From Acidobacteria bacterium 13_1_20CM_58_21 (GTDB lineage Bacteria; Acidobacteriota; Terriglobia; Acidiferrales; UBA7541), in NCBI GenBank assembly GCA_001919715.1, contig MNIJ01000199.1:1-38837 (forward strand): 38,837 nucleotides of DNA, read 5' to 3'. The notes under the pieces are model-generated. The model made no database searches. It saw only the letters and a list, made by a program, of their open reading frames with translations, and was not told where the DNA came from. This document shows positions 1-35,785 of the stretch, piece by piece. The translations under genes and the position numbers were made by a program. Each line of letters begins with the position of its first letter. Position 1 is the first letter of the stretch.

Positions 1-2
1 AA

Positions 3-230
3 GAAAATTACCGCTACGCGATGCGCGTGGTGGACATCACCAGCCCGGACAAGAGTCTGATGCTGATCAAACCCACCCGGCCTACCGACAGCGCCGGCAA
101 CGTAGGTGATTACCTGGCGACGCACAACGGCGGTCAGCGCTGGCACGGAAACGAATCCAGCGACCAATACCAGACCATTCTCGAGTGGATCCGCGGTGGC
201 CGCCTGGAAGACGCCAGTCTGCGAAAATAG
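3..230 (+). CDS. C-terminal end of a cytochrome c-like (planctomycete-type) protein, partial
   Basis: The reading frame is open at the left edge of the window (it reads ENYRYA before the first Met of the track), so only the last 75 or so residues are present. The pattern of a serine-leucine-leucine-like 'SLMLIKPT' stretch, then 'HNGGQRW', then 'ILEWIRGGR' resembles the end of the cytochrome c domain found in Planctomycetes and Acidobacteriota proteins (PSCyt/DUF1549-type), where the segment after the haem site carries the HGG and WI.xG motifs. No CxxCH haem motif is visible because it would lie upstream of the window. The assignment is by eye from a short fragment. It may belong to a larger surface or periplasmic protein. 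Confidence 0.5.
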   Translation, partial: ENYRYAMRVVDITSPDKSLMLIKPTRPTDSAGNVGDYLATHNGGQRWHGNESSDQYQTILEWIRGGRLEDASLRK

Positions 231-247
231 AAAATCGTTGAGCTGCA

Positions 248-541
248 TCAACCCTGGTGTTCGCGATGAGTGCATTCTGGAAAAGGCAGCGAGGTAAGTG
301 TTGTCGAGATATTCCATATCCTGGTGGATGGCCGTCGCGGATGTGTAATAGCCATCGACCGTCATCTGTTTGGGCAACGCGAAAAATTGTTCCAGATCAG
401 TCTGCGAATTCCCTTCGTTGACCGCGCCTTTCCGCAGGGCTTCGGCAAGTGATGAGCGAGCCTGCCTCCTCGCGTATCAGCCGGGACGCGTCTTGCCTTT
501 GCTTCTTGCGCGACTAATTTGAGCAACTCTCTTCTTTCCAT
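248..541 (-). pseudogene. Gluconate 2-dehydrogenase subunit 3 family gene, frameshifted and shortened
   Basis: On the minus strand an ATG at 541 follows a good Shine-Dalgarno (GAGGAGAAAT) and starts MERRELLKLVAQEAKA, the usual start of the small subunit of FAD-dependent gluconate/alcohol dehydrogenases. A frame change then leads into SLAEALRKGAVNEG, followed by a well-kept C-terminal half with KQMTVDGYYTSATAIHQDM and EYLDNTYLAAF. A second frame change gives CTHREHQG and a stop at 248-250. Intact members are about 180-240 residues, so the middle is also shortened. The ORF track misses this gene because no frame stays open. The GMC-type large subunit that normally accompanies this protein is not in the window. 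The mix of a preserved RBS with two frameshifts and a deletion indicates a dead gene. Confidence 0.75.
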
Positions 542-1000
542 ATTTCTCCTCGGACCCTTAAACGCAGCGTCGTCCGTGCGACTCTGCGAACATACTCATC
601 TCGGCGAGACGTCTTACGAAGTCCTTAAAGCTCTCTTCTTCTTCGTTGATCCTTTATTTAGTCCGCAGCGCTCGTAGACAGGGCCATGGTTGTAGATCAC
701 ACCCGTCCACACGGAGAAAGCGGAGTAGAGTCGCGGCCGGCGTCGGGTACAATAACGCGGTATGCGGGTACTGTCGGGCTTTTCTCGAGGGAAGTGGAAT
801 TCACGCAGATTTTCCTCTTGACAACAAACCTCGACAACGCTAACGTGCGCGCGCACGGTGAGCGTAAACTTGCACGTTCGCCAAAAGGTTGGGGTGTCGT
901 GTTCGACCTCCTACTGGAGCTGTATCCCTGGGAACTGGATGCCGTTCTGGTGGTTCTTTCCTGACAAGTGGTGCCAACAGCCGGCTAAAGGAGTTGCGCC
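542..1000. other. Intergenic stretch without a recognisable gene
   Basis: None of the track ORFs here (614-856, 646-843, 686-964, 840-1088) resembles a known family, and they overlap each other in all frames. I see only a sigma70-like promoter at 818-846 and a short leader to the receptor remnant that starts at 1001. Confidence 0.5.
818..846 (+). promoter_or_regulatory. Putative sigma70 promoter
   Basis: A perfect -35 hexamer TTGACA (818-823) is followed, after exactly 17 bases, by TAACGT (841-846), which keeps the TA...T of the -10 consensus. It points toward the receptor remnant at 1001 and possibly the intact receptor at 1760, since only 40 bases separate the two. Prediction from sequence only. 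Confidence 0.45.
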
Positions 1001-1719
1001 ATGCGTAAAAAGACCATGCATTTGAGGGATGGTTTCGGCTTGTATGGCGCTTAACTTCTGTATTCTTGCTTGCGTGTCCGCTTCGCAAGTCGATACGGGA
1101 GGAGTTCGTGGCGCGGTGAAAGACGCCAGTGGTGCGGGTTTTTCTGGCGCCAAGGTGAGGCTAACCAATGAAAACACCACGCTCTCGACGGAGACGCTAA
1201 CCTCTGACAGGGTCAAGATCGGAACCTATACCATTGAAGTGGAAATATCGGGTTTCAGCAAGGGAACCCAGCGGCACGTCAGTGTGGAAGTTCAGCAGCA
1301 GGTTAAGGCGGATTTCCTCTTAAATCCTGGCTCAGTGGCCCAAAGCGTTGAGGTCACAGCCGTCCCCCCGGTTTTGCAGACCCAAGACGCATCCGTGCGG
1401 GCTTTGGCCAGCCGAGTCCAAATTAACAATCTTGCCTTAAATGGTCGAAACTACATCTTCCGTTCAGTTGGGGTCGGGGGTGAGCAGTCTGAAGGGTACC
1501 CGGGGGCTGGATGGCTCCGGAAGTTTTGTGGCCAACTGTCTAACGACCGTCCATAACAACTACATTCTAGAGGGGATTGATAACAATAACGATACGGTGG
1601 ACTCCTGAATGAAACAGCTTACGTGAATCTTCCTCCCCCGAATGGAATCCAGGAGTTCCAAGTGCGAATGAGCAATTTTAATGCGGAGTTCGGGCGTGCG
1701 GGACGAGCGGTATTAACCT
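1001..1719 (+). pseudogene. Oar-like TonB-dependent receptor, N-terminal remnant
   Basis: An ATG at 1001 follows AAAGGAG at good spacing and opens MRKKTMHLRD, but the frame stops after 17 codons. A shifted frame from 1029 then carries a carboxypeptidase-regulatory-like domain (VDTGGVRGAVKDASGAGFSG, TYTIEVEISGF, SVEVTAVPPVLQTQ) and the plug start (INNLALNGRNY). After further frame changes the plug continues as ILEGIDNNNDTVD, then LNETAYVNLPPPNGIQEFQV and FNAEFGRAGRAV, ending at a stop at 1717-1719. Every piece aligns in order with residues of about 30-250 of the intact receptor that starts 40 bases downstream. The barrel is missing. This is a truncated, multiply frameshifted paralogue, not a functional protein. 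Confidence 0.85.
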
Positions 1720-1759
1720 AGGCGATACACCGAAAAAAATATCCAGGAGGAAATCTACC

Positions 1760-4700
1760 ATGCAACGATCCTTCAGGCTTTGCGGGCAGGTCGTCCTATT
1801 TTTCGCGGCCCTGGCTTCGGCGCTATTCCTCCGGTCGGACCCGGCCCTCGCCCAAGTCGATGCCGGGACCCTGCTGGGCACTGTAAGAGACCAATCGGGG
1901 GCGATTGTCCCCGGCACTAAGGTGACCCTCAGGGACGAGGGAACCTCCTTGGTGGTCACCACCACTTCCGGCCGCGATGGCAGCTACATTTTCACACCGA
2001 TCAGGATCGGCACGTACACCGTAGAAGCCGAGTTTCAAGGATTTCAGAAAGTCAGGCGCACGGGCATCGAAGTCAGCATCCAAGCTCAAATCGTGGTCGA
2101 TCTCACGCTTGTGCCCGGCGCTGTCACAGAGACTGTGGAAGTCAAGTCCGCGGCCCCCTTGCTTCAGACCCAGAGCGGGTCCGTGGGAGAGGTGATGGGG
2201 TCGGACTCCATTAACGATCTGCCACTGAATGGCAGGAACTTTAACTTTTTGGCGCGACTCACCGCGGGAGTCACGAGGGCGCAACCGGACACTCGAGGAC
2301 TGGACGCAAACGGCTGGTTTACGGCCAACGGAACACGGCCTGCTCAAAACAACCTTTTACTGGATGGCATCGACAACAATAGCAACAACGTGGACTTTCT
2401 GAACGGAGCCGCATATGTTCTCAGGCCTCCGGTCGATGCGGTCGCAGAGTTCAAGATACAAACCAACTCCTTTAGCGCGCAGTTCGGGCGCGCCGGTGGT
2501 GCAGTCCTAAACGTGAGCTTAAAGTCGGGGACCAACAGATTCCATGGGAGCGCGTGGGAATTTGTCCGCAATGACAAGTTCGACGCAGCCGACTTCTTCC
2601 AGAATGCTGCCAACCAGCCCAAAGGGAAGTATCGGCAGAACCAGTTCGGTGGCTCCGCCGGCGGACCGATTCGAAAAAACAAGACTTTCTGGTTTGCCGA
2701 CTACGAAGGATTGCGGGTCCGTCAGGCAACTCCCTGGGTGGCGACCGTGCCTACGGCGGTCGAACAGGCGAGCGGCTATACCGACTTTCGGGACCTTATC
2801 ACCGGACAAAGCGGCACCGCCGGTACGGATCTTCTAGGTCGCACTTTTCCGCTCGGGGCCATCTTGGACCCTGCTACCACTCGTCCTGTGACTCAAGGAC
2901 AGGCGGACAGTGTCACCGGTCTGACCGCCAGTGGGACGGGTTACGTTCGCGACCAGATCCAGTGTAATGGCGTCGCGAACACGATCTGCCCGATCCGCCT
3001 GGACCCGAATGCGATCAAACTTCTGAAACTCTTGCCAGATCCCACTGGCCCGGGGCTCATCAACAATTACTTCCGCAGCCCTGTCGCCGCAGATCGGGCC
3101 GATCAGTTCGACGTCCGCATTGACCAAAACTTCAGCGAAAAGGACCAGATCTTCGGACGATATAGTTTCTATGACGAACCCTCCTTTAGGCCCGGGCCAT
3201 TCGCAGGGTTTGCAGACGGGGGAGGATTCAACCAGGGCACCCAAAAGAACCGCAATCAGGGCGCCGGGCTGAGTTGGGCCCACGCATTCTCTTCGACGCT
3301 GATCAATGAGGCACGGATCGGGTTCAACAGGGAGCATGTCTATCGTGTCCAGCCCTTTGGTGACGACACCAGTAACATCCCCGAGCAGTTTGGAATTCAG
3401 GCCATACCCCAAACAAAAGGAAACGGGGGTCTCCCTACCATCCTGATTGGAGGGTTAGGTCAAACGCCTTCGCCCAATGTGCGTGGTCAATTGGGCTCTG
3501 CAGAATGGCTGGTGAGCGAAAGGTTCAGCAGCACCTATCAGCTCACCGAAAATTTAACGAAGTTGTACAAATCCCACGCCTTTAAGGGAGGCGTGGAAAT
3601 TCAGCTTATCGATTTCCCTTGGATCGCGCCTCCCTTCTCGCGCGGTGAGTTTAGTTTCGGCGGTGCCTACACCTCGATACCGAATATTACCGACGGCAGC
3701 TCCAGTCGCGCACAATTGCTCCTGCTACCGACGACGGCAACCGTAGCAGGGGGAATCGACAATTTGGGGGGTACCGATGGTGTTCAAGCTTCCAATTTCG
3801 GAGAGCTCTCCCCCTTCAAGCGTTACTATGGGGCCTACCTCCAAGACGACTGGAAGGTCACACAGAAGTTAACTCTGAACCTGGGGATTCGTTGGGATTT
3901 CTTTGGCGCCGTTGGCGACAAGCACGGCGCGCAGGGCAACTTCGTCCCGGGTTCCCCAGGTTCCGCGAAGTTCCTATTTCCCTCTCGCCGGAAGAGCGAT
4001 CCGCTGTCGTCGTCGTTTATTAACCTTCTCCAAGCCGACGGCATTCAGCTCATATATACTGATGCTTACGGGTTGGGGCTGATTAACACTCAGAATACTA
4101 ACTTTGCGCCGCGCTTGGGCTTTGCCTATCAGGTCACGCCGAAGTGGGTCCTGCGCGGTGGATACGGAATTTTTTACGGCGGATTTGAGAATCGAGGCGG
4201 CTACCCCGCCTTGGGGTACAATTACCCGTTCCAGTACACCTTTTCCTTCCCCAGCCCCAATTCCTGGACGCCCGTAACTTATGCAGACGGCCAGGTCGCG
4301 ACGCTCGAACGGGGCTTTCTGAGCATTCCTCTGCGGCCAGACCTAGTGAGGGCCAACGGCCTGGCCTTTCGCGGGATCCAGCTCAACTACCAAACCTCTT
4401 ACACGCAGTCCTACAACCTGACCACGCAATACCAGTTGGACGCCCCTGATACACTTGAAATCGGGTATGTTGCATCGCTCGGGCGCCACATCGAAACCTT
4501 TGCGGGGACGAATCTCGTCTCCGAGCTCTTGCCACCAGGGACCAATCCTCAGTTATACGTTCCGTTCCCGGATTTCGCGCGCGGCTCGCCATACGCAACG
4601 ACAAATGCCAACAGCAACTACCATTCGCTGCAGACTAAGTTCACCCGCCGGATGTCCAAAGGCCTGGAAGTTCTTGCGGCGTTCACCTGGGCTAAAGCAC

Positions 4701-5383
4701 TGACGAATGCGGGCGATCTTCTCAGCGGCGGGAATGTCGGCGGCTTCCGGGCCCCTGGTATCCCCGGGTTTGGAATCGCAGGCGACTACGGGCTCGCAGA
4801 CTTTGACATCCGCAAGGCATTTTCGCTGAGCGGAAACTATGAGCTTCCTGTGGGGCGAAACAGGCGCTTCCTAAATAGGAGCGGCGGATTCAAGGATGCT
4901 CTACTTGGTGGGTGGAGCATGAACTGGATCTTGACGCTCAATGACGGCCAGCCCGTAACTATTAATTGCATCACGCCTGGAGCGGCAGGAGTGGGCTGCT
5001 TCGCCTTGCTGGTGCCGGGCCAGGACAGATACGCTGGCAAACACAACGTCGACCAGTGGATGAATCCCGCAGCATTCACAGATCCCCCTCGGGCCGCGAC
5101 TATCGGGCAAACGGATTTCACGCCCCTTGGTGGCTACCGGACCCCCATCGTTGCCCCGGGCTTTCATCGAGTGGACTGGTCCGTGTTCAAGCAGTTCAAG
5201 ACTTCAGAGGTGACTCACTTGGAGTTCCGTGCGGAGTTCTTCAACCTCACGAACCACGCGAACTTCGCAGCTCCCTCTCAGCGGAATTACAAGGATGTGG
5301 CACACTTCGGGAAGATCACATCGACCATCGACAGCCCCAACGACCCGCGGCAGATCCAGTTCGCGCTGAAGTTCTATTTTTAG
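1760..5383 (+). CDS. Oar-like TonB-dependent receptor with carboxypeptidase-regulatory domain
   Basis: A 1207-residue outer-membrane protein. The ATG follows AGGAGG at good spacing. A signal peptide is clear (hydrophobic VVLFFAALASALFL, cut near ALAQ). Residues of about 31-120 form a carboxypeptidase-regulatory-like beta domain (GTVRDQSGAIVPGTKV, TYTVEAEFQGF). Residues of about 125-250 are the plug (LPLNGRNF, LLLDGIDNNSNN, AQFGRAGGAV), and the rest is a beta-barrel ending in an aromatic residue (FALKFYF), as outer-membrane proteins do. This Oar/SusC-like architecture is heavily expanded in Acidobacteriota and is generally taken to import oligosaccharides or other large substrates with TonB energy. 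The substrate cannot be told from sequence. It is followed after about 120 bases by a TPR protein, and fragments of a second such pair flank this cassette. Confidence 0.93.
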   Translation: MQRSFRLCGQVVLFFAALASALFLRSDPALAQVDAGTLLGTVRDQSGAIVPGTKVTLRDEGTSLVVTTTSGRDGSYIFTPIRIGTYTVEAEFQGFQKVRRTGIEVSIQAQIVVDLTLVPGAVTETVEVKSAAPLLQTQSGSVGEVMGSDSINDLPLNGRNFNFLARLTAGVTRAQPDTRGLDANGWFTANGTRPAQNNLLLDGIDNNSNNVDFLNGAAYVLRPPVDAVAEFKIQTNSFSAQFGRAGGAVLNVSLKSGTNRFHGSAWEFVRNDKFDAADFFQNAANQPKGKYRQNQFGGSAGGPIRKNKTFWFADYEGLRVRQATPWVATVPTAVEQASGYTDFRDLITGQSGTAGTDLLGRTFPLGAILDPATTRPVTQGQADSVTGLTASGTGYVRDQIQCNGVANTICPIRLDPNAIKLLKLLPDPTGPGLINNYFRSPVAADRADQFDVRIDQNFSEKDQIFGRYSFYDEPSFRPGPFAGFADGGGFNQGTQKNRNQGAGLSWAHAFSSTLINEARIGFNREHVYRVQPFGDDTSNIPEQFGIQAIPQTKGNGGLPTILIGGLGQTPSPNVRGQLGSAEWLVSERFSSTYQLTENLTKLYKSHAFKGGVEIQLIDFPWIAPPFSRGEFSFGGAYTSIPNITDGSSSRAQLLLLPTTATVAGGIDNLGGTDGVQASNFGELSPFKRYYGAYLQDDWKVTQKLTLNLGIRWDFFGAVGDKHGAQGNFVPGSPGSAKFLFPSRRKSDPLSSSFINLLQADGIQLIYTDAYGLGLINTQNTNFAPRLGFAYQVTPKWVLRGGYGIFYGGFENRGGYPALGYNYPFQYTFSFPSPNSWTPVTYADGQVATLERGFLSIPLRPDLVRANGLAFRGIQLNYQTSYTQSYNLTTQYQLDAPDTLEIGYVASLGRHIETFAGTNLVSELLPPGTNPQLYVPFPDFARGSPYATTNANSNYHSLQTKFTRRMSKGLEVLAAFTWAKALTNAGDLLSGGNVGGFRAPGIPGFGIAGDYGLADFDIRKAFSLSGNYELPVGRNRRFLNRSGGFKDALLGGWSMNWILTLNDGQPVTINCITPGAAGVGCFALLVPGQDRYAGKHNVDQWMNPAAFTDPPRAATIGQTDFTPLGGYRTPIVAPGFHRVDWSVFKQFKTSEVTHLEFRAEFFNLTNHANFAAPSQRNYKDVAHFGKITSTIDSPNDPRQIQFALKFYF

Positions 5384-5504
5384 CGCGAGGCGGGACGGCC
5401 AGTCTTTCGGGATCCCTGAAGGAAGGGCAGGGCATGGCATCCCCGCCCTTGATTCTAGACCCAGAGTGTGCTGCGCCCTTGTGGTCGATTGATCGAGGTG
5501 CTTG

Positions 5505-6815
5505 ATGGGTCGGCTGGCTGTCGAAAAGAACTCGTACAGGTCCGCATCGGTGGTCGGGAAGATTCTCCCTTCGCTTTTACCAGAAGGACGACCTACATGG
5601 AATGAAGAGACGCCCACGTTGGAGTGTGCGCCCCGCGGCGGCGCGACCGATGCTGGTCGTCGTCGGGAACGAAAAGGGTTCCTAAAGCTGCTGGGAGTTC
5701 TTCTCATCACTGCGGGAGCGCTCTCGGTCGCTGACTGTGTGGCGGATCCTGCGCAGGAGGCCGCTTGTTCAATGCCTCGTGTGCCCAGGAACAAAGCTGC
5801 CCATTCACAGCTGGAAATCGGGCTTCGCCACGCAGCTGAACGTGAGCCCACCAGTTTTGAGGCGAATTACAGACTCGGTGAGTTCTACGTGCAGGCGGGG
5901 AAATTAAAGGCCGGTATTCCGTACCTGGAAAAAGCCCACCAGCTGAACCCCGCGCATTACGCGAATGGCTACGATCTGGCTTTGGCTTATTTTGAAACCG
6001 GAGATCTTTTAAAGGCTCGCCGGCAGATCCAAGGGATGTTGGGTCAGCGGGACAACGCTGAACTGCATAATCTGCTTGGAGAGGTGGAAGAGAAGTCCGC
6101 CGACCCCGTGCGTGCGACGCAAGAATATCAGCTGGCCTCACAGCTGGATCCGAGCGAGGGGAATATCTTCGACTGGGGCAATGAACTGCTTCTTCATGGG
6201 GCATTCGAGGTTGCGAAGGAGGTCTTTTCGGGAGGGCTCGAGCTTCACCCGAACTCCGCGCGGCTCCACATTGGTTTGGGGATTGCCCTGTACTCACGCG
6301 GACTCTATGACGATGCGGCGCAGGCGCTCTGTCGCGCTGCCGACCTGGAACCCTCAGATCCGCGCCCGTATGTTTTCCTTGGCAAGATGTCCGAGATCTC
6401 CCTGCGCCAGGCTGGAGAGGTGAAAACACGTCTTCGGAGGTTCATGCAGTCCCATCCGCGGGACGCCCAAGCACATTACTACTATGCTATGAGCGTCTGG
6501 AAGAGTGAAAGGATACCGAACGGAAAAGGTGACGCCCGTGAAGTTGAGGACCATCTAAAGCAGGCCATCGCTCTCAACCCCGCGATCGAAGAGGCACATT
6601 TGCAGCTCGGCAACTTCTACGCCAACGAGCAGAAGTTCCAGGACGCGATCCTCGAATACCTGCAAGCCATTCGGCTGAAACCTGACTTGGCTAGTGCCCA
6701 CTACAGATTGGCTCACGCTTACATGCGAAGCGGGGACAAGCTCCGTGCCCAGCAGGAGCTGGAACTTTACCAGCGGATCCACGCGCGGGAAACTGCTGGA
6801 GACGCAAAGAAGTAA
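5505..6815 (+). CDS. TPR-repeat protein, probably membrane-anchored or exported
   Basis: About 436 residues. The track starts at a TTG (5502). The ATG at 5505 with GAGG six bases before it is preferred. A polar lead of about 57 residues precedes a hydrophobic segment (FLKLLGVLLITAGALSV), which could be an anchor or a late signal sequence. It is followed by CVADPAQEAAC. From about residue 105 on there are roughly eight to nine tetratricopeptide units (for example FEANYRLGEFYVQAGKLKAG, AHLQLGNFYANEQKFQDAIL, ASAHYRLAHAYMRSGDKLRA). TPR arrays bind other proteins or peptides, and no catalytic domain is seen. It lies about 120 bases behind the receptor on the same strand. A decayed copy of the same receptor-TPR order lies just downstream, which suggests that the two act as a unit. 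The partner is unknown. Confidence 0.85.
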   Translation: MGRLAVEKNSYRSASVVGKILPSLLPEGRPTWNEETPTLECAPRGGATDAGRRRERKGFLKLLGVLLITAGALSVADCVADPAQEAACSMPRVPRNKAAHSQLEIGLRHAAEREPTSFEANYRLGEFYVQAGKLKAGIPYLEKAHQLNPAHYANGYDLALAYFETGDLLKARRQIQGMLGQRDNAELHNLLGEVEEKSADPVRATQEYQLASQLDPSEGNIFDWGNELLLHGAFEVAKEVFSGGLELHPNSARLHIGLGIALYSRGLYDDAAQALCRAADLEPSDPRPYVFLGKMSEISLRQAGEVKTRLRRFMQSHPRDAQAHYYYAMSVWKSERIPNGKGDAREVEDHLKQAIALNPAIEEAHLQLGNFYANEQKFQDAILEYLQAIRLKPDLASAHYRLAHAYMRSGDKLRAQQELELYQRIHARETAGDAKK

Positions 6816-6903
6816 CGAGAACGGGGTGCATTAGCCTGGTTGGCTCTCGGCACTGTTAGTTGGCCAAGGACAACATTGTGCTCCAGTACATAGACGACTC
6901 AGC

Positions 6904-7127
6904 GTGAGCTCCACACCGCTCACCGCTTTCGCGTCACGCGCAGGACTCGCGCACCAACTTAAGTCCCGATTGGTGACTCCGGCGGGGTATGGAATTTTCT
7001 ACGGAGGATTTGAGAACCTGGGTGGCGCGCCAGACCCGGGTTATACCTATCCCTACGCCGTCAAACTGTCTTTCTTCGAACGAACGACGTCACGCCACTC
7101 ACTTATCCCAACGGTCAGCGGCCATCA
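6904..7127 (+). pseudogene. Oar-like TonB receptor, internal barrel remnant
   Basis: One frame reads FASRAGLAHQLKSRLV then PAGYGIFYGGFENLGG and PGYTYPY. The intact receptor has FAPRLGFAYQVTPKWV, GGYGIFYGGFENRGG and LGYNYPF at about residues 795-830. After a frame change it reads RTNDVTPLTYPNGQ, matching SPNSWTPVTYADGQ. So this is a barrel piece of a second receptor, without start, plug or C-terminus. It runs directly into a TPR fragment, which indicates a deletion joining the two. Confidence 0.8.
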
Positions 7128-7289
7128 ACCAATGTGAAAAGGCTCTCCAGATCAACCCTCCATATGGCGACGATCCACTACCGACTCGGGCAAGCGCTCT
7201 TTCGCGGCGGCGCAAATGAGGGAGCAAAAAAGAAATTCGCCGAATTCGAGCGCCTGCACGCGCAAGAGACAGCCGACACCGGCAAGTAG
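7128..7289 (+). pseudogene. TPR protein, C-terminal remnant
   Basis: The start reads CEKALQINPPYG in one frame, then after a frame change IHYRLGQALFRGGANE and FERLHAQETADTGK with a stop at 7287-7289. The intact TPR protein upstream ends AIRLKPDLASAHYRLAHAYM ... YQRIHARETAGDAKK, so this is the last TPR unit and tail of a paralogue. It follows a receptor fragment, repeating the receptor-TPR gene order of the intact cassette with the middle deleted. Confidence 0.75.
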
Positions 7290-7658
7290 ACCGCCGAGAT
7301 TTAGCAGTTTGTCTATACCATGCGTAATTCGAACACTGCTGGCAGGGAATAATATGTCTCACAAATCTTGATTTCGCTTGCTGCAAAGCGTAGGTTTTGT
7401 CAGAGGACGTAGGATGGCAATGACGCCCTTGTTTTTAGGCGCGGATGTCAGTTCTGCACGGATATCATGCAACAGGTTGCAGGGAACCGTGGCGGCTTTT
7501 TGCGTGCTGCTGCAGGCGTCCGGCTGGGCAGCTTCTGATGGACTTTATTCCGCTGTTCGATGTAGCCTTTGCTCGGGGTCCAGATGATTGCTGCTTCCAT
7601 TTCCCTGGGCATGCCCTGTAGCCGTGGCACATTCGTTGGCGACTATGAACTGAAATAA
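7290..7658. other. Intergenic stretch, no gene recognised
   Basis: Three short overlapping ORFs (7378-7587 plus, 7448-7630 minus and the third plus frame) show no family I recognise. A sigma54-like TGGCAC-N5-TTGG at 7625-7639 lacks the essential GC at -12. It may hold another decayed gene, but I cannot name it. Confidence 0.4.
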
Positions 7659-8294
7659 ATGGCCACCACTTCGCAGACTTCCTGGCCTCTCTCCTGGATC
7701 AGCCGATGGCATCACACCTTTGTATTTCAGAGGCGTGCGCGGGTTCTAGCGGAAATGCTCGATGCACAGATAGCCCAGGGGGCGTCCGTCCTAGATATCG
7801 GTTGCGGCGATGGAACGATCAGCAGTCTGGTCGCCAAGTTACGTCCGGACATCTCCGTAAGAGGAGTTGAGACCCTCATGCGGTCCGGTTCGCACGTCGA
7901 GGTTCAGCCATTCGACGGTTCCACACTTCCGTTTGCTGACTCCTCCTTTGACGTATGCCTATTTGTTGACGTTCTACATCATTCGAAGGACGTTTCAGTC
8001 CTTCTGCGCGAGGCTTGTCGGGTGGCGCGTTCTTTCGTCCTGATCAAGGATCACCTAGATGAGAATTTCATCGATGACGTCACGCTGCGAATTATGGATT
8101 GGGTAGGGAACCGACCGCACGGAGTACACTTGACATATAACTACCAAAGCCGCAAGCAATGGGCGGAGCACTTTTCCAGGTGTCGTTTGGCCGAGGTTAG
8201 TTGGACCACACAAATTCCGCTTTACCCGCTGCCCTTTAGTCTATTGGTGGGGCGCGAGCTGCACTTTGTTTCGCTGCTCAGAAAAAAGAAGTAG
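7659..8294 (+). CDS. Class I SAM-dependent methyltransferase
   Basis: 211 residues. The ATG at 7659 directly follows an in-frame TAA, and no strong ribosome site is visible. The Rossmann methyltransferase signature is clear. Motif I is VLDIGCGDGTISSL (residues of about 45-58, SAM binding) and an acidic residue ends strand 2 (RGVETL). The motif IV region is LPFADSSFDVCLFVDVLHH, followed by LLREACRVARSFVLIKDHL. This is the Methyltransf_11 type, near the usual 200-260 residue length for stand-alone members. The substrate cannot be inferred: such enzymes act on quinones, lipids or small metabolites. Its neighbours are pseudogene fragments, so context gives no help. It sits just upstream of a serine recombinase remnant and may have arrived with mobile DNA. 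Confidence 0.85.
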   Translation: MATTSQTSWPLSWISRWHHTFVFQRRARVLAEMLDAQIAQGASVLDIGCGDGTISSLVAKLRPDISVRGVETLMRSGSHVEVQPFDGSTLPFADSSFDVCLFVDVLHHSKDVSVLLREACRVARSFVLIKDHLDENFIDDVTLRIMDWVGNRPHGVHLTYNYQSRKQWAEHFSRCRLAEVSWTTQIPLYPLPFSLLVGRELHFVSLLRKKK

Positions 8295-8296
8295 CA

Positions 8297-8629
8297 ATGG
8301 TCCTCGGCGATCCGCGGGCGCAGGCGAGGAGGGATTGGGAATCATTTCCCTATTGTTGCAAATGCTCCAGGCTTTCGGGCCGTGGTGCAAAGAATTGGGG
8401 AAAATATGCCTGCCCGATTTACCATGAGCGCGGTGCGTGCTCGAACGGGCTGCTGATCAACCGCTATGGCCTGGAGCATGAGACTCTCGCAGGCCTGCAG
8501 CGTGAGGTCATTCGAGAAGACATGATTCAGTTTGCCGTCGCGGAATTTGCGGAATTTGGGCGGCAATTGACAACTAAGCTCCGGGATGCAAGAGCGGACG
8601 AGGAAGGAAGCGGCAGCGCAGAGAAGTAG
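8297..8629 (+). pseudogene. Serine site-specific recombinase, C-terminal zinc-ribbon remnant
   Basis: About 110 codons that resemble the recombinase zinc-ribbon domain of large serine recombinases. There is a CCKC pair, then GKYACPIYHERGACSNGL, in which the second cysteine pair precedes SNG, then a helical tail (GLEHETLAGLQREVI, FAVAEFAEFGRQL). The catalytic resolvase domain and the 'recombinase' domain are absent, and the piece begins two bases after the methyltransferase stop. This is a fragment of a mobile-element integrase or invertase. Confidence 0.7.
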
Positions 8630-8801
8630 AAATTGAGAACTTGGCGTCTGCGATCGCTGAAGGGCACCTGTGGTACGCAATAATTCCACCCGGCTCCCAT
8701 CTGACAGAGATGTTGGCACTTATTTGTCAGCTTCCCTGCGCGAGAAAACGCAAGAGGGCAGCCCTGCTTGGCAGAAAACAATTCTCAGCTGGGCTGACCG
8801 T

Positions 8802-8957
8802 ATGCCATCCTGGCAGGCCATGTTTCGATTCTTTCAGAACGCTAAGCGCTCACTGGATCCTCTGCTTAACTTGATCACCGATCTGGTCGCGGACGGCCTT
8901 CTTTTCTTCCGTCTCCTTCTCCGCTCGCGCACATCTCTGAGCGTGGAGAACGCCGTT
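8802..8957 (+). pseudogene. Possible integrase/transposase N-terminal remnant (IS481/rve type)
   Basis: Inside the long shadow ORF 8670-9275, the stretch LITDLVADGLLFFRLLLRS followed by RTSLSVEN resembles the leader of acidobacterial integrase-core transposases, where a hydrophobic stretch precedes LRSRTSLxAENLFLRKQL. The match breaks off after SVEN and no DDE domain follows. It lies next to the recombinase fragment. The call rests on a short resemblance. Confidence 0.4.
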
Positions 8958-9087
8958 CGAGGCGACATTCGAAGGCCCCCAATGCGGCGATTTCATCTGC
9001 AGCCGTGGGCAAATGCGCCGATGAAAGCCTCGATGCCGTACGGTCGTATGCGCGAATGTTTTCGGCGGATTGCGATGTTGGTCCACT

Positions 9088-10122
9088 TCACATCGTCAGA
9101 ACGACGCGGAACTGTGCCTTCCCGCTCATCATGCGCGCGTAAGCCTCGGCCGCTTTTTCGAGCGGGTACGTCTCGATCATGGGACGCACGCCGCTTAGTT
9201 CGGCGAATCGCAGGGTGTCCTCGGCATCAGCTGCTGTTCCCGAGGCCCAGCCTTGAATACTTTTACTCCCACTAATGAGCTGCACCGGTGTGACCTCGAT
9301 GGGATCAAATGCCGCACCCACTACGATGAGCTTGCCGTTTGGCCCCAGACCGTTGATCACTTCGGACATCGCTTTCGAGCTTGGGGCTGTCGCCAGGATT
9401 ACCTGTGCGCCGCCCAGTTTCTGCAGTGCCTCTGCTGCGTTCGTCACTTTGTTATCGATGTACACGCTTGCACCGAGTTTCTTTGCGAGCGCCGCGTTTT
9501 CCGACCCGCGCCCGATGGCTGCGACCTTATAACCAAACTTGTTCGCGAATTGAATTCCCAGGTGACCCAAACCGCCGATGCCCAACACCGCAACAAGGTC
9601 ACCGGGCATCGCACCGCTGTGCCTCAGAGCGTTAAAGGTGGTAATTCCGGCGCAGAGGAGCGGCGCTGCTTCGGCGTCACTCAGACTTTCCGGCATGGTC
9701 GTCAGCGCCTCCACGGGAGCCACCATGTATTGCTGGTATCCGCCGTCATAGCTGATGCCCGCAATCTTTAGATTCTGGCAATTGCCAAAATCTCCGCGCC
9801 GGCAAGCGAGACACGTACCGTCATGGCCGCCGTGCCAGCCGACGCCGACGCGCTGCCCCTTCTTCCACTCGGAAACACCGGCACCCAGTTCATCGATGAT
9901 GCCCGCGACCTCGTGCCCTGGGACGCGGGGATACTGAATTCCGGGCCAATAGCCTTCTTTCGTGAACACATCACTGTGGCACACACCACAGGCCTGTACC
10001 TTGATGAGCACATGTCCTTCACCCGGCTTAGGGATTTCGCGCTCAACAATCTCGAAATCGGCTCCCGCCTTAGAAATCTGGGCTACCTTCATTGGTGCTA
10101 CTGCGACTCTTGTCGTTGCCAT
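9088..10122 (-). CDS. Zinc-dependent alcohol dehydrogenase (MDR superfamily)
   Basis: 344 residues; the ATG follows AGGAGGACTT, a strong ribosome site. It oxidises alcohols or reduces aldehydes with NAD(P)H in the cytoplasm. The N-terminal GroES-like domain carries the catalytic zinc ligands (ACGVCHSD, then PRVPGHEVAGIIDELG with His-Glu). The Rossmann domain has the dinucleotide loop AVLGIGGLGHLGIQFA. The structural-zinc loop reads GHDGTCLACRRGDFGNC: three cysteines remain, and the position of the first of the usual four is Asp. This is seen in a subgroup of this family as far as I recall. It resembles AdhP/AdhA-type enzymes, whose substrate range is broad. It is transcribed toward pseudogene debris, with a dead cytochrome P460 gene upstream, so it is probably a single-gene unit. 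A role in fermentation or aldehyde removal is inferred. Confidence 0.9.
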   Translation of the reverse strand: MATTRVAVAPMKVAQISKAGADFEIVEREIPKPGEGHVLIKVQACGVCHSDVFTKEGYWPGIQYPRVPGHEVAGIIDELGAGVSEWKKGQRVGVGWHGGHDGTCLACRRGDFGNCQNLKIAGISYDGGYQQYMVAPVEALTTMPESLSDAEAAPLLCAGITTFNALRHSGAMPGDLVAVLGIGGLGHLGIQFANKFGYKVAAIGRGSENAALAKKLGASVYIDNKVTNAAEALQKLGGAQVILATAPSSKAMSEVINGLGPNGKLIVVGAAFDPIEVTPVQLISGSKSIQGWASGTAADAEDTLRFAELSGVRPMIETYPLEKAAEAYARMMSGKAQFRVVLTM

Positions 10123-10177
10123 AAGTCCTCCTATGAATTCTCAGCCATTGTTGAAAAGCACTCACTGCCGCTATCGT

Positions 10178-10633
10178 TTACCTTCGACGGTAGCCCGTGA
10201 AAATAAAGTCTTTTGCCGTTACAAAGGTATAGCACTGCTAACAAATTTTCTTCCGGAATGAGCTCTCGCTCCCGAAAGGTTGATCGTATCAGACGCTGCG
10301 TCACATAAAAACTGGGCATATCCGCATCCACTCGTGTCCGGAAATCTCTTGGAATCCATCTCCATGAACGAACCGATTTTAGAGTGTCCGCACGCCCACA
10401 AAATAGGGCGACGCAGCGTTCTTTTTTTTGGACCACTCGATCTTTGCAATCATGGAGCCTTCGGGAAAAGGCCTGCCATTGCCGGGAATGCCTTCCTTAT
10501 ACGCGTTTATCATCACGGGATTCCCCAGGATGGCCTTGATCCCAACTTCCGTCTGACGCGCTGCGACATCCTGCGATGTTTCGTATCCACTAAACTCAGA
10601 AAACGCACAACGGGCAGCATCATCGTTGATCAA
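10178..10633 (-). pseudogene. Cytochrome P460 family gene, haem motif destroyed
   Basis: Three minus frames in sequence give IKAILGNPVMINAYKEGIPG, FPEGSMIAKIEWSKKKNAAS and SPYF, then (shifted) MEMDSKRFPDTSGCGYAQFL and DAASDT, then (shifted) VTAKDFIFTGYRRR with a stop at 10178-10180. This is the order of a cytochrome P460 domain. At the expected haem site the last frame reads C-stop-Q-C-Y where the family has a CxxCH such as CHQCH, so the haem can no longer be attached. The N-terminal signal region is also missing, and the remnant overlaps the end of the upstream fusion gene by 14 bases. Intact P460 proteins are periplasmic and act on hydroxylamine or NO. Confidence 0.82.
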
Positions 10634-13600
10634 TGTCTGCTTGCCTCCAGCCCGGTCCTCGCAGCGCCTGGCCCGCCATGATCCCCGTCAATTTGCCATC
10701 CTGGAATTCTAATTGGCCATTGACGAAGACATATCTCACACCTTTGGAAAGGCTGGTAGGCTCGGCATATGTTGCCGTGTCTTGAATGGAATTGGGATCG
10801 AAGACTGTGATATCGGCAAAATAGCCCTCCTTGAGCAGGCCACGATTGAGTAAGCGTTCGCGTTGAGCGGGCAGGGAGGTCATTTTACGAATAGCTTGTT
10901 CAAGCGGCAGCAGGTGCAGATCCCGGACGTAACGTCCAAGGAAGCGCGGCATCGCCCCAAAAGCTCTCGGGTGCGTGTGCTCTTCAAAGAGCGGTCCATC
11001 GAGAGATAATTCGCCTGCGTCGAGGCAGAGACTGGTCCACGGTTGCTTCAACCCGAATTGCATATCGTTTTCGCTGGCCATGAAGTAGAGCGCTCCGGTC
11101 TGGCCTTTATCCGCGAGGATGAAATCGAAGAGTGCATCGAGCTGTGTTTTCGTTTGCGTCTTGGCAATCTGGGCGACTGTCTTACCATCAAATTTCTTGA
11201 GATCCGGGTTTACCACACCCGAAACCATGACGCCGCCACCGCCGCCGCTGTCGAAGTATAAGTTTTCCCATTGCTGGTGGTCTGCGCTCATTTCTGCTTT
11301 TATCTTGGCGCGGGTCGCGGAGTCCCGCAGGCGCTGCAGGAGTTTCTCGATACCACCGTCGGCGACCCATGGCGGGAGGCTGGAAGCCAGAGCGGTGCCT
11401 CCGGCAATGTAGGGGTACATGTCCGCAGTTACATCCTGTCCTGAGTCACGCGCCGTTTGGATCATCCCAACGATTTTGGGCATGGAACCCCAGCGTGTCT
11501 TTCCGCTGACTTTAAGATGGAAGATTTCAACCGGCAGATGCGCTTCACGCCCAATGCGCAACGCCTCGGTGATGGCCGCCGGCTCGCTCTGTCCTTCACT
11601 CCGCATGTGCGTGCCGTAGATACCGCCGTATTGCGCAGCCACTTTTGCCAAGTCGATCAATTCTTCGGTTTTGGCGTAGTGTCCCGGTGGATAAATGAGC
11701 GCTGTTGAGATTCCGAACGCGCCTTGTTGCATGGCTTGTGCTACGAGAGCCTTCATCTTTTCCAGTTCCTTGGGCGTGGGTGGGCGGTCCACGTCCCCCA
11801 ACACTGCTTCTCGCACTTGCGCGGCACCCACGTATGTCCCGATATTCAGAGGAGTGCCAACCCTTTTCAGGCGGTCGAAGTAGCCATCCAGCGTGGCCCA
11901 ATCCACCTTGAGTTGGTAGTGGTCTAGCACGGGCTGAAGCGGTACCAGAGTAAGGTCCGTCTGTGGCGCGATTGATCCTCCCTCACCGGTAATTTCCGTG
12001 GTGATTCCCTGCGAAAGCTTGCTCAAGGAACGGTTGTCGATGAGTAGCGACGCTTCCGATTGTCCGAGCATGTCGATGAAGCCCGGCGAAACGACCAGTC
12101 CCGAGGCATCAATCGCGCGAATGGCGTGCGCGCCATCGAGTTTTCCGATCGCCACGATGCGGTTGCCGCGCAGCGCAATGTCCCCGGAAACCCAAGGATT
12201 TCCGGAGCCGTCAAGGATTTTTCCATTTTTAATGAGCACGTCGTAGTCACGGCTGCCTTGGACGCTTGCTTGCGAGTGCAATGGTGCGTCAAAAGCCGCG
12301 GAAGCGATTTCACCCAAGGCTTCTCCGACGATTTTTTGTGTCGCTTCAGGATCCTCCAAGGGAACGGCTACCATATTGGCGTAAAGCGCCAGAATAAGAT
12401 GCTCGCCGCTGGCTGTTTCCATATAGCCGGCAAGACCCTTGCCGGTGATCATCAAATTCTTGTTCAAGGCATCGTAGACGCCATACGTTCCGGTTTTTGC
12501 GTGCACGTGTCCCGCGGCAGGTGAGTTCACCTGAATCTTAAAGAGCGTGCCATCTTTTCCCAGGATCGGCAGTGCGTGATGAAAATCGGCGAAATCTTTT
12601 TGTTTGGACATGTAAAGCAGATAGTGGACCATGAAATCCGGCGTATAAAAGGCGTTGCCACCGGCTCCGTCGCTTTGGGACGCGCCAGTAAGATCAAGCC
12701 CACCTTTCTTCAGAAAATCGTTCTCCAGGTCAAAACCCGTGGGATTAATTTGGTTAGCTTTGTTGCCCAGCAACGCGGCGAGAACGAAGGGCGTTATGCT
12801 GGCGTGAAGGTTCTGGCTGACTTTCAATGTGACCTTCACTTCTTCCGTGAGAGGTGGTGAAACATGCTCCGCGACTAGGTTCTCTGGTTTGTAGCTTGCG
12901 GCTAGCGCCTTAAAATCAGGCTTGTCCCCCGTAGACGCAAAGACAGAGGCCACACCATTTTCCTTCAGAGCTTCCATCAAAACGGTACCGGCAAAACGAC
13001 TGGGTTCAGGCACACCATAGGAGGCCATAGTAGAGCGGCCGCCAAGGGCCAGGGTGCCGGTCACGGTGACGATGTGCGTTCCGTCCTGGTTAGGTTTGCC
13101 ATCAGAGTATTCGAGCGAGGCCTTCGATCCGGCCTTTCCGGTTGTGGCCTGGTTGATGAACGTAACGTATGCCGTCCGCGGAGAGATCTTGAGTGTTACC
13201 GGGGCGCCTTCGGCCGAGCCAGGAGTGAAGACCACATCGAGGACGTTATCATTCACGACGATCGGCGATATTACTATGCCCGTGCCCAGCTCGCGTTCTC
13301 CTTCAGGAAAGAGAGTCACGTCCACCAAGAGCTTCCCATTTACGCGCCTGATGCCCTTATCGGCAATCTGTCGCGCAAACTCGCGCAGCACCAATAGTGT
13401 GTCGCCGGCTAGGCCCTTGCTATCGGGCCCTCCGTAGGAGTGATCTTGATCTTCAAATGCCAAAGTCCCATCCGGCTGAATACGGTTGGAAAGGTTAGAG
13501 TCGCCGCTGGCCACTAGCACCAGATCGCCGTCGAGCGTCCCGTCATTCTTAATCGGCCCCGTGCGATAAACCCTGGTATGGAAGCGGTAGTCTCCACCTA

Positions 13601-13874
13601 AGAGCTCGAGCGCTGTGCCCTCCGTGAGCAACTTGGTTGTGGAGCCAGGCACGAAGAGCTGTTGCGAATTCAACTCGTAGAGGACCTTCCCGGTATCGAG
13701 CGAATAAAATTCGATGCCGAATCGGGAGTGTGCAAATTCTGGGCGGCTCATGATTTTCTTGATCCGCTGCTCCAGGGCAGGGGGGAACTGCGCAGACACA
13801 GGACGCCTCGAAAGCCCGGCTAGAATAAACAATGTGCAGATTGCGAGAATTCGGAAAGCCTCTTTCTTGTTCAT
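10620..13874 (-). CDS. Fusion: D-Ala-D-Ala carboxypeptidase/endopeptidase (PBP, S13) + N-acyl-D-amino-acid deacylase family
   Basis: The track starts at a GTG (13883). The ATG three codons later fits GAGGA at about ten bases and begins MNKKEAFRIL with a signal peptide cut near VSAQ, so the protein is exported (1084 residues). Numbers below follow the track protein. The first 530 or so residues are a DacB-like penicillin-binding domain: SxxK at S81-K84 (GSTTKLL), SxN at 356-358 (SQN), KTG at 463-465. This would cut the terminal D-Ala or cross-links in peptidoglycan. After a short linker, 546-1087 is an amidohydrolase of the D-aminoacylase type (SPGFIDMLGQSE, YPPGHYAKTEELI, GTHMRSEGQ with H759, IFHLKVSG with H789, CLDAGE with D955). 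The usual HxH after GFID is L-x-Q here. The frame is continuous across the linker. A combined role in wall D-amino-acid release is inferred. The deacylase half could have another substrate. Confidence 0.92.
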   Translation of the reverse strand: MNKKEAFRILAICTLFILAGLSRRPVSAQFPPALEQRIKKIMSRPEFAHSRFGIEFYSLDTGKVLYELNSQQLFVPGSTTKLLTEGTALELLGGDYRFHTRVYRTGPIKNDGTLDGDLVLVASGDSNLSNRIQPDGTLAFEDQDHSYGGPDSKGLAGDTLLVLREFARQIADKGIRRVNGKLLVDVTLFPEGERELGTGIVISPIVVNDNVLDVVFTPGSAEGAPVTLKISPRTAYVTFINQATTGKAGSKASLEYSDGKPNQDGTHIVTVTGTLALGGRSTMASYGVPEPSRFAGTVLMEALKENGVASVFASTGDKPDFKALAASYKPENLVAEHVSPPLTEEVKVTLKVSQNLHASITPFVLAALLGNKANQINPTGFDLENDFLKKGGLDLTGASQSDGAGGNAFYTPDFMVHYLLYMSKQKDFADFHHALPILGKDGTLFKIQVNSPAAGHVHAKTGTYGVYDALNKNLMITGKGLAGYMETASGEHLILALYANMVAVPLEDPEATQKIVGEALGEIASAAFDAPLHSQASVQGSRDYDVLIKNGKILDGSGNPWVSGDIALRGNRIVAIGKLDGAHAIRAIDASGLVVSPGFIDMLGQSEASLLIDNRSLSKLSQGITTEITGEGGSIAPQTDLTLVPLQPVLDHYQLKVDWATLDGYFDRLKRVGTPLNIGTYVGAAQVREAVLGDVDRPPTPKELEKMKALVAQAMQQGAFGISTALIYPPGHYAKTEELIDLAKVAAQYGGIYGTHMRSEGQSEPAAITEALRIGREAHLPVEIFHLKVSGKTRWGSMPKIVGMIQTARDSGQDVTADMYPYIAGGTALASSLPPWVADGGIEKLLQRLRDSATRAKIKAEMSADHQQWENLYFDSGGGGGVMVSGVVNPDLKKFDGKTVAQIAKTQTKTQLDALFDFILADKGQTGALYFMASENDMQFGLKQPWTSLCLDAGELSLDGPLFEEHTHPRAFGAMPRFLGRYVRDLHLLPLEQAIRKMTSLPAQRERLLNRGLLKEGYFADITVFDPNSIQDTATYAEPTSLSKGVRYVFVNGQLEFQDGKLTGIMAGQALRGPGWRQADIDQR

Positions 13875-14086
13875 GGGGTACACGTCCTCGGACCTTCAGA
13901 TTTGTACGGAACCACGTGTCGGGCAGCAGGCGCGCTGACAAGAGAGGCAAATCCGCGGAGGAACCACGCACCTGTTCGAGTTGTTTTCATCGGAGTCGAC
14001 TGGGCTTGCTCCAGCGGCGAACATGATGAATGCCCAAAGCGTAAACTCCCTTGCCGTGTTCCCTGGTCATTCCCAAGGCTTCTGCC

Positions 14087-26435: not shown

Positions 26436-27539
26436 TTAGTAGAAATCGCGGGAATCGATTCGTTTTCCGGAGAGCCCGAGTTGCAGAATGTCCATTTGTT
26501 CCGGCCGGTCAAAAATCCTGCCCGGGAAAAAGATTTTTGCCACCACGCGGACACCGCCGAACGCCGCGCCCAGGACCACGGCCGCCACCATGAACAGACC
26601 TGTCACTAGGAATATCCTGGTGAGAATCGTCACCCACGGTGGATCGGTAATCGTGTGTCTCGGCTCGTGCCAGGTCACCTCTGTTTCGTAATTCAACGCG
26701 CTCCGCAGCGCATCGCCATAAGCCGCTGAGGAGGGCTTCAGTACGAGTGCGAGCAGGGAAGCCTTGCGTTCAATGGTTGTTCCCGCCTGCTTGGTGGCCG
26801 GAGAAAGCGCCTGCTCCAGATGTCGCAGGTGCTGCTCCGCCAGTTGCGGGGTGGGATATTCGATCAGTAGCAATCCTGCCGAGTCCTTGCCGTTGCGATA
26901 CTCCGCGATCATGGCCTCCGCGCCAGAGGCAAACCCTGCTTCACTCACAAGGTTCGTGAATTCCTCGTGTCTTAGCGCGTTCAGCGCGTTCTGCAACGCC
27001 GCAGGCCCTAGCGCGTACCTTTGCGTCCCGTCCGAGAAGCCGCTCGGCAAATACGTCCGAATCGGCGGCAGTGGCGTCTGTTCGGAGTGCTTCCGGACCA
27101 TCGCCGCAAGTTGTTGCAGCTCATCGGTAGTAGGAGTCTGTGGCGGCCTGACCTCCAGGATTAGGTTGCCGACGAGCAGCAGCAGGCGCTCCTGGTCGAT
27201 CGCCGAAGGCCCTCCGATCGTGGACGGATGCATGTGGGGCCCAAACTCTGAGGTGTAGGCTTCGTACGCGCCGCTGGGGTCCCGGAATTGCCGGAGTGTG
27301 ACTCCCACCTTCTCAGTCCCGTCGGAATACTCTTCAGCGAGCCAGTTCTTCAGACCCGACTCGGCGAATACCTGTGCTCGCCCGTCGTCAGTCTTGATCT
27401 TGATGGGGGAACTGACGGCGTTCCATCGCCCAAATCGTACGGGGAATACTCGCTCAAGTGCACTTTGCGCAAACAAACGGGGTGCGCCAGCCACGGCGGC
27501 CATAAAGAGCGACAGGCAGATGAGGCGAGGCATTCGCAT
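26436..27539 (-). CDS. Exported membrane-anchored protein, DUF6599-like
   Basis: 367 residues; the ATG follows GAGGATGGG. There is a signal peptide (LICLSLFMAAVAGAPRLFAQ), a long soluble part and one membrane helix near the C-terminus (about 310-335, IFLVTGLFMVAAVVLGAAF), so the bulk is probably periplasmic with a short cytoplasmic tail. Two similar halves can be suspected (a 'YSDGTEKVGVTLRQFRDPSG' type and a 'EYRNGKDSAGLLLIEYPTPQ' type), each a beta-rich unit about a DGT/KD-x-A pattern. This resembles the DUF6599 proteins of Acidobacteriota, whose function is unknown. It starts 26 bases after the amidase stop and is probably co-transcribed with it, which hints at an envelope role. Confidence 0.8.
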   Translation of the reverse strand: MRMPRLICLSLFMAAVAGAPRLFAQSALERVFPVRFGRWNAVSSPIKIKTDDGRAQVFAESGLKNWLAEEYSDGTEKVGVTLRQFRDPSGAYEAYTSEFGPHMHPSTIGGPSAIDQERLLLLVGNLILEVRPPQTPTTDELQQLAAMVRKHSEQTPLPPIRTYLPSGFSDGTQRYALGPAALQNALNALRHEEFTNLVSEAGFASGAEAMIAEYRNGKDSAGLLLIEYPTPQLAEQHLRHLEQALSPATKQAGTTIERKASLLALVLKPSSAAYGDALRSALNYETEVTWHEPRHTITDPPWVTILTRIFLVTGLFMVAAVVLGAAFGGVRVVAKIFFPGRIFDRPEQMDILQLGLSGKRIDSRDFY

Positions 27540-27565
27540 CCCATCCTCTATTAGACACTAACGGC

Positions 27566-29764: not shown

Positions 29765-29866
29765 GCTACATCCCCAAAACGCCGCTCAATTCGACAACCA
29801 CCAGGAACATACAACTAAGAAGCACGAACAACCAACCACCAAGAACTAATTACCGGATACCCTATT

Positions 29867-30583
29867 CTATTCGTTGGTGAATATGATGCGGCCGCTCGGA
29901 GTGACGTCTCTGTGGATCGCGCGTGGGTTGATGAAGGCATCCGCAAGACGTCCCGAACCCGGCCGGAAATAGGCATCCTGTACTCGCTGTACGTAATTCC
30001 GCGTTTCTCGATACGCAGGTATTCCGTGAGCCCGGTCAACGGCCCCCTCTCCCGCATTGTACGCCGCCAGGGCCAAATTGAGGTTGCCATTATAGCGTTC
30101 CAGCAACCACTTCAAATGCTTAACCCCGGCATCAATGTTTTGTTGCGGGTTGAACAGGTCATAAGCCCCATATCGTTGTGCCGTCGTGGGAATCAACTGC
30201 ATCAATCCGCCGGCTCCCTTGCGGGAATACGCCTTGGGATTCCAGTTCGATTCCGTTTCAATCACCGCGCGGACCAGCGCCGGGTCCACGCGATGCCGGT
30301 CCGCCGCTTCTCGAACGAGTTTTTCCTGGCCGTCGCGGCCGATGTCCATGGCTGGACGGCTGCGTCCTGAAAACGAAGACTCAGCGGGCAGGTAGATGCT
30401 GGCGCGCGGCTTGGTGGCAGTGAGTTTGGCTATCACCGGCGCTTCGGCGTTGACAAAGAACTGCCGGCCCGAATCGTCAACGACCTTGGCGATCTGGCCG
30501 CTGGTGCCCGGGGCGAAAACGGTCGAGCAGACCATCAGCGTCGCTAGAACAAGCCACGCCGCGTTTGCTGTGCGTTTCACCAT
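29867..30583 (-). CDS. Lytic transglycosylase (SLT domain)
   Basis: 238 residues from the ATG at 30583 (MVKRTANAAW), preceded by CAGGGCACG. The track's 24 extra residues are not typical. There is a signal peptide cut near GTSGQ, then a short exposed part (DSGRQFFVNAEAP), then the SLT catalytic domain at about 95-215: ALVRAVIETESNWNPKAYS with the catalytic Glu, GAGGLMQLIPTTAQRYG, FNPQQNIDAGVKHLKWLL and LALAAYNAGEGAV. It cleaves the MurNAc-GlcNAc bond, forming 1,6-anhydroMurNAc in the periplasm. An amidase gene follows about 100 bases downstream and alaS precedes it. The pair of wall hydrolases suggests joint work in cell division or turnover. Confidence 0.93.
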   Translation of the reverse strand: MVKRTANAAWLVLATLMVCSTVFAPGTSGQIAKVVDDSGRQFFVNAEAPVIAKLTATKPRASIYLPAESSFSGRSRPAMDIGRDGQEKLVREAADRHRVDPALVRAVIETESNWNPKAYSRKGAGGLMQLIPTTAQRYGAYDLFNPQQNIDAGVKHLKWLLERYNGNLNLALAAYNAGEGAVDRAHGIPAYRETRNYVQRVQDAYFRPGSGRLADAFINPRAIHRDVTPSGRIIFTNE

Positions 30584-30798
30584 CGTGCCCTGGGGAAGGC
30601 CAACAACAATTTTCGAACCTCGTACAGAGCGGACAGTCCTTATTATCGCCCCCACCCGGTCACGGTCAATATCCCTTCGGTACTAGGGACCCCTCCGAGC
30701 AGTCTGCCGAGATCACCCGACGATGGCTCATCCCTGCGAATCCGCGCCCGCAGGGGAGGTTGTCTACCGCAAGACACGGTTTTCTGACGGTGCCTAGA

Positions 30799-33549
<2,751 letters not shown>

Positions 33550-33633
33550 GTGAGCCTCAATTCCGGCACGATGGAGTGCCCTCATTATCGCAGAGGGGGT
33601 GAGATAGCACCATTGGAGGCGCAGTGGACGAGT

Positions 33634-34149: not shown

Positions 34150-34280
34150 AAGATAAGAATAGAAGTAACCAAGTAGGGAAGTAAAGAAAACAGATGCAGC
34201 ACATGCTCCAGTAAGGAAAAGGCTTAACGCCGAGGGCACCGAGACGCAGATCAGACGCTCCGCAGCTTCCGCATTCCAGG

Positions 34281-35426: not shown

Positions 35427-35785
35427 GTCGTGTGAACCCCGCAAGCATGCATCTATACGCGACACTAGCATCCGGGGGTAGGGTGGGCAAGCAAGCCGCG
35501 CAGGCCAGTTGCGCGCTAGTTAACGGTACCTGGAGTGGGCAGTCTTAAGTTGTTAGCCCGCAGTTGCCGGACAGGGGAACCGGGATAGGGATAAAAATTA
35601 GGGCCGAGGGAAGTACGCCCGGTAGCCGCCTGGTGCGGCAGTCGCGGCCCGCGGGCAGAGAGCCTTGAGGAGAGAAGACTAAGCACTTCGAGCTGAAACA
35701 TCACGGGGAGAAACCTGCGACTACAGGTGCAAAATGAAAGTGGCAGCGTAGTTTGCGTAGTAAGAACTTCTAACTTAAAACCGAT
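35427..35785. other. Intergenic stretch upstream of pilT and downstream of the aquaporin gene
   Basis: No gene is recognised; ORF 35516-35704 has no family resemblance. I looked for a GEMM-type c-di-GMP riboswitch before pilT and did not find its conserved pieces. The pilT promoter is presumably here. Confidence 0.4.

Follow-up and report, generated by a model that had tools for sequence, protein, structure and literature searches.

Probable horizontal gain of a receptor-TPR gene pair within the remains of an older cassette in an acidobacterium of the class Terriglobia

In soil, Acidobacteria rank with the most abundant bacteria, and they possess tens to hundreds of Oar-like TonB-dependent receptors. 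Here, we analyze a window of 38,837 nucleotides from Acidobacteria bacterium 13_1_20CM_58_21 (GenBank assembly GCA_001919715.1; contig MNIJ01000199.1, labeled C22 here), part of a 239-contig MAG of 3.9 Mb and 63% completeness, the same-genus relatives of which are gp2 soil Acidobacteria. The window holds an intact receptor gene followed by an intact TPR gene, and the question it raises is how this pair came to stand between pieces of a second, decayed receptor-TPR cassette. A preliminary description had recognized this arrangement and ascribed it to either insertion or tandem duplication. All of the pieces were confirmed by tblastn, in which the intact receptor matched 1029-1715 (E 2e-30) and ~6898-7074 (E 1e-12) and the intact TPR protein matched 7164-7286 (E 5e-6). 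The features of the locus are collected in Table 1.

Table 1. Features of the locus, in window coordinates
Feature	Position	Strand	Remarks
HEAT-repeat protein, C-terminal end	1-230	+	Old left neighbor; 97% DNA identity to G024:C90, 93% to G017:C5
Conserved upstream region	707-845	+	Candidate locus promoter; conserved with G024:C90 and G017:C5
Old receptor, N-terminal remnant	1001-1728	+	aa 1-252; three frames, several stops
Putative transferred unit	1729-6816	+	DNA homologous to G365:C100:8391-13328, 82-85%; divergent spacer 5380-5684 excepted
Intact receptor	1760-5383	+	1207 aa; signal peptide, CarboxypepD_reg, OMP_b-brl_4 barrel; Oar/SusC-like
Spacer and 5' end of TPR ORF	5384-5684	+	~150 bp longer than in G365; unconserved
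Intact TPR gene	5502-6815	+	437 aa counted from TTG 5502; conserved from 5685
Old receptor, mid-barrel remnant	6860-7121	+	aa ~763-850; more than one frame
Old TPR gene, C-terminal remnant	7121-7343	+	Interrupted by two stops; joined directly to the receptor piece
Transposase fragment	8675-8947	+	Matches 5' part of gene; 83% DNA identity to G011:C412, 87% to G024:C96
Backbone	8951-33800		Largely collinear with G016:C69, with gaps; mostly 95-97%, short stretches lower

The intact receptor contains both domains expected of a predicted Oar-like TonB-dependent receptor, namely, CarboxypepD_reg (PF13620) at residues 37 to 117 (E 2.3e-16), which is also present in the left remnant, and OMP_b-brl_4 (PF25183) at residues 254 to 1200 (E 1.7e-217), covering the C-terminal ~950 aa. 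The intact TPR gene is complete compared with its nearest homologue, in G365; the first ~60 codons of its ORF (5502-5684) are unconserved and its start codon is uncertain, with a putative hydrophobic signal stretch at ~5682-5730. A 5' truncation of this gene by decay was considered and rejected, because the G365 homologue has an identical conserved extent. Since the N-terminus differs from that of the main clade while the G365 homologue matches it in extent, we regard it as a subclade feature combined with the difference in spacer length. Comparison of the intact genes with those of G365 gives dN/dS values of 0.12 for the receptor and 0.22 for the TPR gene at similar dS (0.62 and 0.55), by which purifying selection is shown for both. 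These low values indicate that receptor and TPR gene have both been kept functional since their separation from the G365 pair.

When 399 genomes of the class were searched at the DNA level, a single close relative of the unit was found, contig G365:C100, which belongs to another family. DNA identity is 84.5% over 1729-5379 and 82.3% over 5685-6816, and at the protein level 87% for the receptor (G365:C100:8422-12045) and 77% for the TPR protein, against a baseline between the same two genomes of 64 to 72% over 27500-35500, including alaS, and short paralogue matches of up to 74%. In the receptor tree, the intact receptor groups with that of G365 (100/100), adjoining receptors of family f7 (100/100), and a receptor clade of the whole genus that includes the intact receptor is rejected (p-AU 1.5e-7). 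The TPR tree is congruent, again joining the intact gene with that of G365 (100/100) and rejecting a genus clade that includes the intact TPR (p-AU 0.003). No match to the unit was found at 1e-60 in G016, the backbone of which is 96% identical to the window, and the unit is present in only 1 of 398 genomes of G365's own family, so that the pair is patchy in both families. G365:C100 is the closest relative found and, by these comparisons, not an established donor; it is a short MAG contig of a composition compatible with misbinning, and the placement beside the family f7 receptors is independent of any such misbinning. As judged from DNA identity and from both trees, receptor and TPR gene share one horizontal history; their origin is foreign to the genus and probably lies in a distantly related acidobacterial lineage.

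The edges of the G365 similarity lie close to the old pieces on both sides. On the left, similarity begins at ACCGAAAAAA (window 1729), within 1 to 2 nt of the left remnant and immediately past remnant codons matching ...GRAGGAVINAAI of the G024:C35 receptor. On the right, it ends at 6816, one base past the TPR stop, and the first clear right-remnant codon follows ~40 nt on. The transferred DNA would correspond to almost exactly the two genes; neither the LacI gene of G365 nor its ~325-bp intergenic region is found beside the unit in the window. Direct repeats, which the preliminary description had proposed to seek near the breakpoints, were not found there, nor were inverted repeats, target duplications, or terminal repeats, and the only direct repeat detected is the shared barrel motif itself (71% over 68 nt). 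Of the possible entry routes for the incoming DNA, illegitimate recombination seems the likeliest.

To delimit the remnants, frame-aware comparison was made with their nearest intact relative, the receptor-TPR pair of G024:C35. The upstream remnant, previously described as a receptor N-terminus reaching about residue 250, was measured to residue 252. For the downstream part, the earlier identification as a mid-barrel piece joined to a TPR C-terminus stands and its extent does not: the receptor piece starts earlier, and the TPR piece, thought to end at the TAG at 7287-7289, has homology that passes a second stop and runs on to ~7340, including a QFVYTMRN motif (45.8% identity over 59 aa, E 4e-13). 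In a tree of 228 N-terminal columns, the left remnant is sister to the G024:C35 receptor (98/87) and then to that of G017:C23 (100/97). It is 58% identical to the former versus only 43% to the intact receptor, a lower identity than it has to nearly all of the family members compared, and a clade of left remnant plus intact receptor is rejected (p-AU 0.0002). The right receptor piece (~88 aa) has the same two nearest relatives, at 61.8 and 58%, followed by matches of only ~40 to 42%, which runs counter to the possibility that the remnants are closer to different paralogues. The old TPR tail fits the TPR family (best, 53%) and is too short for subclade placement alone. Because both receptor pieces share these top relatives, the flanks are best read as the putative ends of one old cassette of the G024:C35 type, from a different subclade than the intact pair, in agreement with the single old pair previously suggested by their order. 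Between the two remnants ~510 receptor residues are absent at the site, which argues for replacement, or for insertion plus deletion, and not for a clean insertion. A cassette of the G024:C35 type persists elsewhere with its own TPR gene, and searches at the DNA level of ~100 relatives and of 399 class genomes gave no uninterrupted version of the old cassette.

We therefore favor, with a probability of roughly 0.8, horizontal gain of one promoterless unit that replaced the middle of an old receptor gene, the remnants of which then decayed. A receptor-TPR unit of ~5.1 kb would have arrived as one piece and entered an older cassette of this kind that belonged to a different subclade, a single event producing both junctions, and both ends of the old cassette would afterwards have decayed in place. 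Insertion, one of the two origins first proposed, is in this form supported by the closely abutting foreign unit.

A former row of three cassettes, with the remnants being two old copies of one subclade and a transferred or native middle copy the sole survivor, is improbable. Several receptor-TPR genes do lie close together in relatives such as G091, G031, and G095, and the remnants, being non-overlapping, allow no direct comparison with each other and could in principle derive from two such copies; however, their shared nearest relatives, their ordered, non-overlapping arrangement, and the tight fit of both junctions to the unit speak for one old copy, which suffices. We consider it very unlikely that contig C22 artificially joins DNA of different organisms within 1-8950, even though identity reaches 97% with G024 at the left end and is 96 to 97% with G016 in the right part, a transposase fragment lies at 8948, and the genome is a MAG in many contigs. 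In GC content (0.56) and tetranucleotide profile, 797-8947 agrees with the genome, the remnants are not random joins but decayed receptor segments that stay in register with each other, and no repeat able to cause a false join is present at 1728 or 6817. Tandem duplication of one cassette with decay of the outer copy is scarcely credible: the remnants do belong to the same broad receptor and TPR families with gene order kept, but the intact pair is closest to the pair of another family, the rejected clade of left remnant and intact receptor counts against any such origin, and this tree together with the left-remnant identity refutes a recent duplication.

Under the favored replacement, the new pair would be transcribed from the upstream promoter of the old cassette, having brought along only a donor-like leader of 31 nt, inside which the ribosome-binding site of the intact receptor lies. 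Matching parts of window 1-796 are 92 to 97% identical to G024:C90 and G017:C5, in both of which the HEAT-repeat homologue is 1422 aa long, with HEAT_2 present, and a different receptor of 1133 aa begins directly behind the equivalent of 707-845. The alignment contains a TTGACA at ~819-824 common to all three, and a sigma-70 scan found no consensus promoter at the threshold used. Conservation with these relatives is what suggests a promoter role for 707-845, and the new pair probably depends on this region for transcription. Given the different receptors in the relatives, at least three receptor types occur behind it. Over 1-850, the window is 92 to 97% identical to G024 and G017, while other window parts are only ~70 to 85% identical to them. 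G017 carries an IS605-type insertion.

Downstream, the transposase fragment marks the left boundary of the G016-like backbone, and its intact relative in G011:C412 resembles the IS481/IS3 families. At the threshold used, G016 yielded nothing that matches the block 797-8950. Collinearity with G016:C69 has a breakpoint at 8951-9065, and ~73 G016 bases are missing from the window at 9065. At 10620-13883, one long ORF combines a D-Ala-D-Ala carboxypeptidase (S13) with an amidohydrolase, a stretch that in G016 is broken into separate ORFs. No known structured RNAs were found in 1-10500.

The pairing itself extends across the class. We surveyed 77 Terriglobia loci encoding a relative of the window TPR protein; of the 70 with room upstream, 62 have the TPR gene immediately preceded by such a receptor, as the preliminary description had anticipated. 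Downstream, 56 of the 77 loci carry one or both of the same two uncharacterized genes (~402 and 424 aa; L257-L336, e.g., L135:11911-14329), which are without a Pfam or NCBIfam match at 0.001. The conserved Terriglobia cluster reads LacI, receptor, TPR, and two uncharacterized genes. The window has its receptor-to-TPR order, and the upstream LacI and the two-gene tail are absent from it; in G365, a LacI gene lies upstream of the pair. Elsewhere in the organism's own genome (assembly 63% complete) the canonical cluster was not found. This genome encodes at least ~40 Oar-like receptors, and a TPR gene of some kind, mostly distant from the window TPR, follows on the same strand in 8 of the 33 with room (chance ~3e-8, given an estimated background of ~1.5%). 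There are exceptions to the receptor-TPR pairing: a TPR neighbor is lacking for five receptors from a single subclade and for G017:C23. Some TPR relatives (L211:7269-8825 and L121:5639-7360) bear an N-terminal carboxypeptidase-regulatory-like domain, as the receptors do. The congruent trees and the restriction of the transferred DNA to little beyond the two genes provide good evidence that receptors and TPR partners travel through genomes as one unit, as had been supposed from this locus.

For function, we rely on gene neighborhoods and on structural modeling. Neighbors of the relatives include LacI regulators, GH30/GH2, GH5/alpha-galactosidase, PfkB and AgaS-type sugar genes, a Gfo/Idh oxidoreductase, and a xylose-isomerase-like protein, which suggests a carbohydrate-type substrate. 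When modeled, a main-clade TPR protein (mean pLDDT 88.6) forms an open superhelix of ~12 TPRs that starts with a signal-like helix; among solved structures, it is best matched by TPR superhelices, like the TPRs of O-GlcNAc transferase, with no SusD among the matches listed. The window TPR protein has profile matches to TPR-type families only. Members of the family start with hydrophobic, signal-like stretches, the start of the window TPR being uncertain, and have no clear lipobox by eye, so that a periplasmic location is likelier than a surface one. The receptor would accordingly import a sugar-type ligand with TonB energy, and the TPR protein may act as its exported periplasmic partner, relaying substrate or serving as a receptor scaffold.

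The best-known counterparts differ in part. In Myxococcus xanthus, Oar is required for secretion of a protease (PMC6434023), and a secretory role is therefore also possible for the window receptor. Both are long receptors with an N-terminal extension, here a carboxypeptidase-regulatory-like domain, and a large barrel, here covered entirely by OMP_b-brl_4; the window type differs from Oar in being followed by a TPR gene and in having neighbors that suggest sugar uptake. The pair also resembles SusC/SusD of Bacteroidota polysaccharide utilization loci, in which a receptor with an extra N-terminal domain is likewise followed by an adjacent, co-oriented gene for a helical helper, with regulators and glycoside hydrolases nearby and with the pair inherited and moved together. 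However, the TPR partner matches no SusD model, has a different fold, and is more likely periplasmic, and its membership in the SusD/RagB family was rejected on profile matches and fold. The resemblance is one of arrangement, not of membership. A wider proposal is that Acidobacteriota own a two-part glycan uptake device, in which a TPR protein does SusD's job in the periplasm and which spreads between families as a promoterless module, landing in older copies and taking over their promoters; this we put forward as speculative and rather doubtful. The many divergent receptor paralogues recall those of “Ca. Solibacter usitatus,” ascribed to old transfer and duplication (PMC3174227), in a text that names no receptor-TPR pair, whereas the present locus delimits one transfer on both sides. 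Our limited literature search found no paper naming an acidobacterial receptor-TPR pair.

As the pair occurs across the class and has apparently moved jointly, accompanied by very little further DNA, the TPR protein becomes the prime candidate for the receptor's partner, and an interaction between the two becomes directly testable. The locus would also document one route of turnover in receptor repertoires, in which the upstream region stays and the pair behind it is exchanged for a new one.
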